From positions 434,001-498,000 of the forward strand of contig NZ_MPOB01000001.1 in the NCBI RefSeq assembly GCF_002148795.1: a stretch of DNA of 64,000 nucleotides. The letters are read 5' to 3'. The stretch comes from Oceanibaculum nanhaiense. GTDB taxonomy: Bacteria; Pseudomonadota; Alphaproteobacteria; Oceanibaculales; Oceanibaculaceae. The notes under the pieces are model-generated. The model was not told the origin of the DNA. It worked only from the letters and a program-made list of their open reading frames with translations, and searched no databases. The translations under genes were made by a program, and so were the position numbers. Shown in pieces: positions 2,922-19,334 of the stretch (the first letter of the stretch is position 1; every line of letters begins with the position of its first letter).

Positions 2922-2948
2922 GGAATAATCCGGCGGGTTTTGCGTCTA
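2922..2948 (+). promoter_or_regulatory. ECF-type promoter of the sigma factor gene (copy 1 of 3)
   Basis: GGAATA at 2922-2927 and CGTCTA at 2943-2948 are separated by exactly 15 bases. The same two boxes with the same spacing recur at 4541 and 4660. The location upstream of an ECF sigma gene fits autoregulation. Expected transcription start is about 2955, giving a 65-base leader. This also excludes translation from the upstream in-frame ATG at 2915. Confidence 0.7.
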
Positions 2949-3019: not shown

Positions 3020-3568
3020 ATGAAAAGCTGGATGGAAAATGCCCGGAAACCGGGCGGGGAATATGCTGGCGGGGCGGATCTGGCGGAACATGTCCGCAGT
3101 CTCCGGCGTTACGCGATTGCCCTGACCGGCGATCCGTCGGAAGCGGACGATCTGGTGCAGGAGAGCCTGGTGCGGGCGCTGGCCAGGATCGAGGAGGGTG
3201 CGGAAGTGCGGAATGCGCGGACCTATCTGTTCAGCATCCTGCACAATCTGCGCGTCGATCTGCTGGCGCGGAATGCCCGGCGCGGCCCGCAGATGCCGCT
3301 GGAAGCGGTTGAGCACCGGCTGTCCCGCCCGGCGGAGCAACCCGCCCGTCTGCGCCATGCGGAGCTGGCATTGGCCATCGATGCGCTGCCGGAGCAGCAG
3401 CGCGCCGTGCTGCTGCTGGTGGCGCTGGAAGGGGCGAGCTATCAGGAGGTGGCGGAGATCCTGGACATCGCGCCGGGTACCGTCATGTCGCGCCTCAGCC
3501 GTGCCCGCAAGGCGCTTCGGGACCTGATGGAGGAGAGTGCGGTCACCAATCTGCGCAGGATGACGTGA
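3020..3568 (+). CDS. ECF-family RNA polymerase sigma factor
   Basis: An extracytoplasmic-function sigma factor of about 182 residues. Region 2 is seen as SLRRYAIALTGDPSEADDLVQESLVRAL, and region 4 as ALPEQQRAVLLLVALEG followed by the helix-turn-helix SYQEVAEILDIAPGTVMSRL. There is no C-terminal extension. The start at 3020 (or 3032) follows the predicted transcript start; neither has a good Shine-Dalgarno, and a TGCCGC/GCGGCA hairpin (3001-3020) ends at the initiation codon. The stop overlaps the anti-sigma start by 4 bases. The promoter series in this locus implies that it controls itself, a small RNA and a DUF4168 gene. It is not the PhyR-NepR general stress system, because neither partner is nearby. 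Confidence 0.92.
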   Translation: MKSWMENARKPGGEYAGGADLAEHVRSLRRYAIALTGDPSEADDLVQESLVRALARIEEGAEVRNARTYLFSILHNLRVDLLARNARRGPQMPLEAVEHRLSRPAEQPARLRHAELALAIDALPEQQRAVLLLVALEGASYQEVAEILDIAPGTVMSRLSRARKALRDLMEESAVTNLRRMT

Positions 3569-4524
3569 TGAAGAATGAGCACACCGGAATCAACACCACG
3601 CCGCTGATCACCGAGGCGATGCTGCTGGCCTATGTCGATGGCAGCCTGGCCGAGCCGCAGCGGCTTGCCGTCGAGGCGCGCCTCGAACGCGACCCGGAGA
3701 TGGCGGCGAAGGCGGCGGCCTATCGCGCACAGAACGAGGCGCTGCACGCGCTGTTCGACCGCCACCTGGCCGAGCCGCTGGATCCGGTCATCGCCGACCT
3801 CGAATCGGAATTGCGGAAGGCTGGCGCGCCGCGCCGGCCGAGCAGGAAAGCCTGGGGGGCGGCCGCCCTGGCGGCGTCCGTCGCCCTGGTCGCGTTTGCC
3901 GGCGGCTTTGCCCTGGCCGAGTATCGCAGCCGCGCGCCGGTCGGTCCCGTCACTGCCTTCATGCAGCAATTTCCGGCACCAGCGGAGAAGGTGGCTGGCA
4001 TCATGCCGGCGGGCGGTGCCCTGCGGGTGTCCCCTGCGGGCTTCCGCCCGCCCGATCTGTCCGCCCTCGGTTTGCGGCTTACCGGCGAACGGCAGCTGGG
4101 CAGCGCCGCAGCGGCGGTTACGCATCATCTGTCCTATGAGCGGGCAGATGGCCGATGGGTCAGCCTGTATGTCGGAACGGAGGCCGCCGGCGATACGCCG
4201 CTGCGGGCGATCTATCCGGATGGGCGCTCCGTGCTTGCCTGGCGCAAGGATGGCCTGTCCTACAGTCTGGTGGGCACGGTTGGCCGTGACGCGATGATGG
4301 CCATCGCCGGCACGCTTGATGGTGCTGCCGGTGCGGCAAAGCGGCCGACGGTCATGCCCAAGACGCTGCCTGACCCGGCTGGCGGCCTGCGTCCCGCGCA
4401 ACCTGTCGAGACGATACAGCCGCCGGCGATTCCCGCCGCACCCACGGCGCCGTCGATCGCCCCCAACCCCGCAAACCGCCCGGATGGCGCGGCACCGCGC
4501 GCACGGGACGAAGGGGCGGCGTGA
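3565..4524 (+). CDS. membrane-anchored anti-sigma factor
   Basis: Predicted to hold the adjacent ECF sigma factor inactive at the membrane. Residues 1-90 form the cytosolic anti-sigma domain, with the characteristic LLAYVDGSLAEPQRLAVEARL stretch. A single membrane helix lies near residues 93-117 (AALAASVALVAFAGGFAL). The rest is periplasmic, ending in a Pro/Ala-rich tail. The zinc-binding His-x3-Cys-x2-Cys signature of ZAS anti-sigma factors is absent, and the cytosolic domain has no cysteine, so redox or zinc sensing there is unlikely; a periplasmic cue passed on by proteolysis or conformational change is more plausible. It is co-transcribed with the sigma gene (4-base overlap). Confidence 0.85.
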   Translation: MMKNEHTGINTTPLITEAMLLAYVDGSLAEPQRLAVEARLERDPEMAAKAAAYRAQNEALHALFDRHLAEPLDPVIADLESELRKAGAPRRPSRKAWGAAALAASVALVAFAGGFALAEYRSRAPVGPVTAFMQQFPAPAEKVAGIMPAGGALRVSPAGFRPPDLSALGLRLTGERQLGSAAAAVTHHLSYERADGRWVSLYVGTEAAGDTPLRAIYPDGRSVLAWRKDGLSYSLVGTVGRDAMMAIAGTLDGAAGAAKRPTVMPKTLPDPAGGLRPAQPVETIQPPAIPAAPTAPSIAPNPANRPDGAAPRARDEGAA

Positions 4525-4540
4525 GAATCTACCGGACGAT

Positions 4541-4567
4541 GGAATATTGGCAGCTTTGCGTCGTCCA
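4541..4567 (+). promoter_or_regulatory. ECF-type promoter upstream of a predicted small RNA (copy 2 of 3)
   Basis: GGAATA (4541-4546), 15 bases, then CGTCCA (4562-4567): the same architecture as at 2922 and 4660. It lies 17 bases after the anti-sigma stop codon and points at a segment that has no gene but ends in an intrinsic terminator. Confidence 0.65.
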
Positions 4568-4573
4568 TGGTTC

Positions 4574-4659
4574 TGAAGGTGGACCCCATCACCTTCTTGT
4601 GAGCCTCCCTGTTGGTTCCTGTTGACCTTGAGGCCCCGCCATCCGGCGGGGCTTTTTTT
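4574..4659 (+). ncRNA. predicted ECF-dependent small RNA
   Basis: About 86 nt bounded by an ECF-type promoter (expected start 4573-4575) and a strong terminator. The 5' end folds into GAAGGTG (4575-4581) paired with CACCTTC (4590-4596) around a C-rich eight-base loop (GACCCCAT). An apparently unpaired linker follows and contains GCCTCCCTG (4603-4611), complementary to Shine-Dalgarno sequences. The 3' end is the terminator hairpin with seven T residues. A C-rich loop plus a free anti-SD stretch is a common design of alphaproteobacterial trans-acting sRNAs. I do not recognise it as a named RNA, and transcription is inferred, not shown. Confidence 0.55.
4633..4659 (+). terminator. Rho-independent terminator
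   Basis: A perfect 8-bp stem, GCCCCGCC (4633-4640) with GGCGGGGC (4645-4652), closes a four-base loop and is followed by TTTTTTT (4653-4659). It ends the sigma/anti-sigma/sRNA transcription and lies directly before the third ECF-type promoter. Confidence 0.9.
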
Positions 4660-4686
4660 GGAATAATGGTCGCGTTCGCCCGTCCA
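4660..4686 (+). promoter_or_regulatory. ECF-type promoter of the DUF4168 gene (copy 3 of 3)
   Basis: GGAATA (4660-4665), 15 bases, CGTCCA (4681-4686). It abuts the T-tract of the preceding terminator. The expected start is about 4693; the leader to the ATG at 4751 contains a GCCGGC-ATGCTT-GCCGGC hairpin at 4697-4714. Confidence 0.65.
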
Positions 4687-4750: not shown

Positions 4751-5122
4751 ATGAACAAGCGTATCCTGACGACCCTTTTGCCGGCACTCATGCTTGCCGT
4801 GGCGCCGGTCGCCGCGATGGCGCAGAGCCAGGCACCGGCACAGCAGCAGGAGATGCCGAAGATCGACGAGAGCCAGCTCGATTCCTATGCCGATGCCGCC
4901 GTTAAGATTTACGACATCCGGGTGCGCTGGGAGCCGGAGATTCGGGCCGCCGAAAGCCAGGAAAAGGCGATGGAGGCGCAGCGCGAGGCACGCACCGAGA
5001 TGATTGAGGCGGTGCAGAAGGAGGGGCTGTCGGTTGAGGAGTACAACTCGATCACGGCAGCCGCCCAGCGTGACCCGGACCTCAACCAGAAGATCGCCCA
5101 GCTGATCGAGAAAAAGCGCTAA
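4751..5122 (+). CDS. secreted DUF4168-domain protein
   Basis: A 123-residue exported protein. Residues 1-22 are a signal peptide ending AAMA-QSQ. The mature region is a charged helical DUF4168 domain, with the LDSYADAAVKIYDIRVRWEP helix followed by EEYNSITAAAQRDPDLNQKI, a segment typical of the family. The start is the ATG at 4751, preceded by GGAGAGGA; an upstream in-frame ATG at 4703 would put charged residues before the signal peptide and lies inside the leader hairpin. The function of DUF4168 proteins is not known; a periplasmic stress role is inferred here from its ECF-type promoter. Confidence 0.85.
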   Translation: MNKRILTTLLPALMLAVAPVAAMAQSQAPAQQQEMPKIDESQLDSYADAAVKIYDIRVRWEPEIRAAESQEKAMEAQREARTEMIEAVQKEGLSVEEYNSITAAAQRDPDLNQKIAQLIEKKR

Positions 5123-19114: not shown

Positions 19115-19334
19115 GGGCTCTATCCCGTTGCCGTTGGGTCGGTTTAAAGTCGCGTCACCGCACGCAAACCCGCCCAAGCAAAAATGCGCCCGTGCGCGAA
19201 ACTCGCGGACGGACGGTGCCCCCCAACAGGGGTGGAGGGCTTCTATGGGCGGCCAACATGCCGTGAATGGGGCGGAACCTAGGGGAAACGGCCACCGGAG
19301 TCAATCGCCGTGCGGCCGGGAAGCGGGGGGCTTC

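Follow-up and report, generated by a model that had tools for sequence, protein, structure and literature searches.

The window, by which we mean the whole 64-kb stretch of Oceanibaculum DNA analyzed here, carries on its plus strand between 2922 and 5122 an extracytoplasmic-function-type (ECF) sigma factor gene, an anti-sigma factor gene, an RNA segment, and a DUF4168 gene, in that order (Table 1). The DUF4168 product, an exported protein, is the third member of the local regulon. The segment before its gene, whose promoter begins 16 nt past the anti-sigma stop codon, had been described in an earlier note as a predicted small RNA (sRNA) gene, in which an ECF-type promoter fires into a stretch without a gene that ends in a strong intrinsic terminator. 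Both elements were confirmed: the promoter opens into a segment in which no conserved open reading frame (ORF) was found across four Oceanibaculum genomes (the window genome, G000, plus G001, G002, and G003), and the segment closes with a G+C-rich stem (4630-4655) that overlaps a T7 run (4653-4659).

Table 1. Features of the ECF locus in the window and positions of the RNA orthologues
Feature	Position	Strand	Basis or remark
ECF promoter of sigma gene, GGAATA-N15-CGTC	2922..2946	+	Same promoter in G001, G002, and G003
ECF sigma factor gene	3032..3568	+	Start at 3020 or 3032; Sigma70_r2, Sigma70_r4_2, TIGR02937
Anti-sigma factor gene	3568..4524	+	Position 3' of sigma gene; weak NCBIfam anti-sigma matches below cutoff
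ECF promoter of sRNA, GGAATATTGGCAGCTTTGCGTCGTC	4541..4565	+	Motif; conserved boxes
sRNA, about 87 nt	4572..4659	+	Putative start ~7 nt past -10 box; end at T run
5' hairpin, GAAGGUG-GACCCCAU-CACCUUC	4575..4596	+	Compensatory change, U-A to C-G, versus G003
Core hairpin with exposed seed loop, GAGCC-UCCCUGUU-GGUUC	4601..4618	+	Conservation; unpaired probability
Intrinsic terminator, GGCCCCGCC-AUCC-GGCGGGGC plus U7	4630..4659	+	Fold; compensatory changes between species
ECF promoter of DUF4168 gene, GGAATAATGGTCGCGTTCGCCCGTC	4660..4684	+	Starts one base past the T run
DUF4168 protein gene	4751..5122	+	PF13767, E = 1.2e-17
sRNA orthologues	L035:3174-3270; L033:2789-2928; L034:3169-3307

The motif GGAATA-N15-CGTC occurs three times in the window, before the sigma gene, at 4541, and before the DUF4168 gene; all three sites thus fall in this locus, and each is correctly oriented. 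When spacers of 14 to 16 nt were allowed, the window count of three compared with 0.17 expected in shuffled sequences, and none of 100 shuffles reached three. Genome-wide, GGAATA-N15..17-CGTC gave 24 matches versus 8 with the reversed pattern, and the exact N15 spacing gave nine, among which only the three of this locus lie outside long ORFs on the reading strand. Outside long ORFs, the genome has just three exact-consensus promoters, and because one of them serves the sRNA, we suggest that the sRNA is a core output of the ECF system. The motif fits the ECF26 consensus (-35 GGAATA, -10 GT), and the mapped rpoE4 promoter of S. meliloti is GGAATA...CGTC, as here (PMC6180224). Its occurrence before the sigma gene suggests autoregulation. 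Upstream of DUF4168, the GGAATA boxes keep their position in G002 and G003, and G001 has a variant, GGAATA with TGTC. A GGAATA/CGTC-type promoter also precedes the DUF4168 genes of Pelagibius and of one Kiloniellaceae metagenome-assembled genome (MAG), and at four loci from other Alphaproteobacteria (L058, L048, L042, and L054) a related ECF sigma gene is divergent from a DUF4168 gene. These promoters and divergent neighbors make it probable that the association of DUF4168 with this sigma type is old and conserved.

With transcription inferred to start at about 4572, the size of the product agrees with the approximately 86 nt proposed earlier. The proposed 7-bp hairpin with a C-rich loop was also recovered (GAAGGTG/CACCTTC as DNA, with loop GACCCCAT). 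The core sequence GCCTCCCTG sits at 4603-4611, and the claim that a stretch complementary to ribosome-binding sites is free holds for UCCCUGUU, which is predicted to form a fully exposed loop, but less well for GCCUCCCUG, which lies partly in the predicted weak 5-bp stem GAGCC/GGUUC. None of 200 shuffles folds as well as the window transcript (z = -4.2), and the other three orthologous RNAs have z-scores of -3.4, -5.0, and -4.3. The terminator has no entry in the output of the pattern scanner, in our reading because the run's first T's are part of the stem. The window has an 11-codon ORF that begins with the ATG at 4567, as would suit a transcript that encodes a small peptide (a dual-function or coding sRNA, like Pos19). 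However, this ATG precedes the putative transcription start, the frames differ in length and sequence among the species (MVLKVDPITFL, MKPKANSVTPSCEPP, and unrelated ones in G001 and G002), and the variation tracks RNA stems and not codons; we rejected a peptide as scarcely credible.

Promoter, RNA, and terminator are found directly 3' of the anti-sigma gene in all four Oceanibaculum genomes, so that the hairpin and promoter have been kept alongside the neighboring genes rather than lost from beside them. Between the window and G003, the closest pair, no base of the -35 and -10 boxes differs, whereas identity is 47% in the spacer, 62% in the 5' hairpin region, and 65-77% at the third codon positions of the neighboring genes. 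Against this background, the core at 4595-4630 is identical at 35 of 36 positions, with a binomial probability of 8e-4 at 76.6% background identity and 8e-7 at 62%. The RNA of G001 and G002 is longer (~139 nt) and retains CUUCCCUGUUG-UUCCU right before the terminator, and its hairpin loop, GUUCCCCAUUU, is identical in both genomes. The CCUCCC of the window reads CUUCCC in G001 and G002, and a strict anti-Shine-Dalgarno reading is therefore not invariant.

An alignment across both species pairs made with MAFFT misplaced the hairpins and was dropped, and stems were therefore compared within species pairs. Compensatory changes, which bear on the covariation in relatives that the earlier note had named as a check, were seen there. 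In the 5' hairpin, one such change separates the window from G003, and G001 and G002 differ by five, plus one broken pair; in the terminator, each comparison made gave two. The stems were aligned by hand, working out from the loop, and these counts should be taken as a reading, not as a blind test. UCCCU has a predicted unpaired probability of 0.73-1.0 in the four species, and UCCCUG is predicted to be unpaired in all of them. In the window and G003, the stem GAGCC/GGUUC is predicted to present UCCCUGUU as a loop; in G001 and G002, the 5' end of the RNA would pair instead with a downstream GUUGUUCC, and UCCCU would still be unpaired. The two species pairs thus have different pairing partners, and it is the exposure that appears to be conserved and not its context. 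Taken together, the promoter statistics, the conservation in four species, and the compensatory stem changes support a discrete, free-standing sRNA gene next to the sigma/anti-sigma pair that, as read from the sequence, would be driven by the ECF promoter. It is very probably a real, conserved sRNA gene of the ECF regulon.

The position of the element nevertheless has to be weighed against two other readings. As it begins 16 nt past the anti-sigma stop codon and holds the only evident terminator of the sigma/anti-sigma operon, it could be mainly the terminator and 3' untranslated region (UTR) of that operon, the small RNA being a stable fragment released by RNase E; SorX, which has the same core, is such a product, deriving from the 3' UTR of the ompR-1 mRNA (PMC8625941). 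We consider this unlikely, since the RNA is separated from the stop codon by an exact ECF promoter, kept in all four species, whose boxes are conserved and whose spacer has diverged, although the two routes, own promoter and 3' UTR, may coexist. The element also precedes DUF4168 on the same strand, as would a cis-acting leader or attenuator in which transcripts begun at 4541 end at the terminator unless a signal causes readthrough. In the Kiloniellaceae MAG, the DUF4168 5' region past the ECF-like promoter (L040:4818-4960) contains the core-like CCTCCC-GCCGGTTCCCGATTGAC, which was matched in quality by 1 of 1,000 shuffles but was one of 23 loci inspected and has no obvious terminator. A leader is nonetheless very unlikely, as the DUF4168 gene of the window has its own ECF promoter immediately past the T run, a GGAATA box lies 3' of the terminator in the other species as well, and in G001, G002, and G003 another ORF separates the RNA from DUF4168. 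This ORF is small, Gly-rich, and lipoprotein-like and lies 3' of the second ECF promoter (L033:3038-3231 and L034:3429-3631, also in L035); it is absent from the window. We therefore retain the reading as an independent sRNA gene.

As far as searched, the RNA at this locus is restricted to Oceanibaculum. A DNA similarity search of 59 relatives gave a full-length match only in G003, the remaining matches being terminator stems, and the exact core pattern was found only in G000 and G003 among 385 genomes of the class. Scanning 26 loci with related ECF genes outside the genus, some of them incomplete, we found no such sRNA. A model of the core plus terminator (R1), searched over 385 alphaproteobacterial genomes, recovered the four orthologues at 59-81 bits and gave strong matches only in Oceanibaculum.

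We consider it likely that the RNA acts in trans as an sRNA of the neighboring ECF sigma regulon, with a mechanism of which transcription, sigma dependence, Hfq binding, pairing at ribosome-binding sites, and repression are all inferred. The anti-sigma factor would release the sigma factor, presumably upon envelope or redox stress, and the released sigma factor would bind near-identical promoters and transcribe the sigma/anti-sigma operon, the DUF4168 gene, and the ~87-nt RNA. The RNA would fold into a 5' hairpin, a small hairpin presenting UCCCUGUU, and a U-tailed terminator, which Hfq would bind; an Hfq gene is present in the genome. The exposed loop would then pair in trans with GGGAGG-type Shine-Dalgarno regions and lower translation, giving the regulon a repressing arm. 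Taken alone, this last step, from loop pairing to lowered translation, seems to us evenly balanced between right and wrong.

Two observations make the post-transcriptional arm of the earlier note, with the RNA acting at ribosome-binding sites, plausible: all four RNAs are predicted to expose the UCCCUG loop, and several matches at Shine-Dalgarno sites recur in orthologues. The sRNA may well be a repressor at such sites. The suggested search for GGGAGG-like targets returned recurrent sites, with ACAGGGAGG at the Shine-Dalgarno position of acetoacetyl-CoA reductase orthologues and of another short-chain dehydrogenase (both in G000, G002, and G003) and of two TRAP substrate-binding proteins and one 148-151-residue protein (G000 and G003). 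The leading, if weak, target candidates are the solute-binding proteins, with TRAP substrate-binding genes at G000:C4:367213 and G000:C3:106590, and the acetoacetyl-CoA reductase, encoded at G000:C4:142820. The part of the search that did not hold up is the distinguishing prefix: among the matches listed, ACA before GGGAGG-N5-ATG is not enriched over other prefixes, and the target pairing is thus without statistical support. A genome-wide count of 46 matches, versus 2 with the reversed pattern, had looked strong but vanished in the control with other prefixes before GGGAGG, and because this fairer control gives no enrichment, we claim none. The conserved target sites could also belong to a second RNA in the genome that shares the seed.

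This second RNA, of ~70 nt, lies at G000:C3:415775-415848 on the minus strand (L096) and consists of ACGUCUCCCAGACGUGAAGCCUCCCUGUUCAACUUG plus a terminator; it has the same seed, is nearly invariant over 30 nt, and was also seen at L063, L064, L068, L070, L071, L073, L075, L076, L091, L094, and L102. At E <= 1e-4, a model of it (R2) matched 177 of the 385 alphaproteobacterial genomes sampled, although some of the weaker matches may be SorX-type RNAs. Its scores in the loci tested were below every Rfam gathering score (best for SorX, 27.6 versus 46.6). The window RNA matches R2 at 13.5 bits (E = 0.051), compared with 86-90 bits for genus members. The finding points to a widespread class of seed-sharing RNAs. 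Whether the window RNA is one branch of a large and mostly unnamed alphaproteobacterial class, laid out as hairpin, CCUCCCUGUU loop, and terminator, is more doubtful; we offer only tentatively the idea that its lineages use different stress sigma factors (here of the ECF26 type) and that several of its RNAs compete for the same ribosome-binding targets.

Alphaproteobacteria commonly have ECF26-type sigma factors; to our knowledge, no ECF26 regulon is known with an sRNA arm shown to be driven directly by the cognate promoter. With one sigma factor, one exported protein, and one sRNA, the locus offers a compact test case for how an ECF system acquires a repressing arm.

At both gathering and relaxed Rfam thresholds, the RNA belongs to no family, and the earlier statement that it matches no named sRNA is true at these thresholds, although its core is that of SorX and BjrC1505. 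Elsewhere in the window, at 19179-19230 on the minus strand, there is an Rfam match to "ffh sRNA" (RF01793) of 42.9 bits, above the gathering score of 35. Among the far weaker matches of R1, the layout of hairpin, CCUCCCUGUU, and terminator recurs in two tandem copies of SorX (RF02784), in BjrC1505 (RF02356), and in an unnamed RNA. SorX of Rhodobacter resembles the window RNA in its 5' hairpin, CCUCCCUGUUGG, and terminator, in its size of about 75-90 nt, and in its link to stress; however, its covariance model scores the window RNA at 16.5 bits, below the gathering score of 46.6, its regulon is linked to RpoHI/RpoHII, and it is cut from the ompR-1 3' UTR, whereas the window RNA lies at another locus under its own ECF promoter. 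BjrC1505, an alphaproteobacterial sRNA, shares a GCCUCCCUGUU core between hairpin and terminator (L066) but has a 140-nt model with further hairpins that, even with E relaxed to 5, gives no match to the window (threshold, 50 bits). The likeness to suhB/MmgR (RF00519), a short sRNA whose terminator is preceded by a C/U-rich stretch, is weak (15.8 bits for the window and 24.6 for L059, versus a gathering score of 41). The shared CCUCCCUGUU core may reflect either common descent or convergence on an anti-Shine-Dalgarno seed.

In its regulation, the RNA can be compared with two known systems. A cognate ECF-motif promoter directly upstream, kept in relatives, is what is expected of an ECF-controlled sRNA, and the window RNA has one. 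GsrN of Caulobacter is an ECF-controlled sRNA, under sigma-T/EcfG, with homologues typically near sigma/anti-sigma genes (PMC5869019). Both are alphaproteobacterial sRNAs of about 100 nt with an ECF promoter, an exposed C-rich 5' loop, and an intrinsic terminator. The comparison is one of layout, and the conserved part of the window RNA is its 3' core and not the 5' loop. Moreover, GsrN activates katG and depends on the ECF15 (EcfG) sigma factor of the NepR/PhyR system, with GGAAC/CGTT promoters, whereas the window promoter is of the ECF26 type, GGAATA/CGTC. The ECF26 regulons of S. meliloti (RpoE1, RpoE3, RpoE4, and RpoE6) likewise have GGAATA/CGTC promoters and a sigma gene followed by an anti-sigma gene, but the promoter of the sRNA linked there to RpoE6 has no motif match, whereas that of the window sRNA matches exactly (PMC6180224). 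By analogy, the window RNA is most likely a stress-induced, trans-acting RNA like GsrN and SorX: the sRNA is new, and the kind of regulator is already known.
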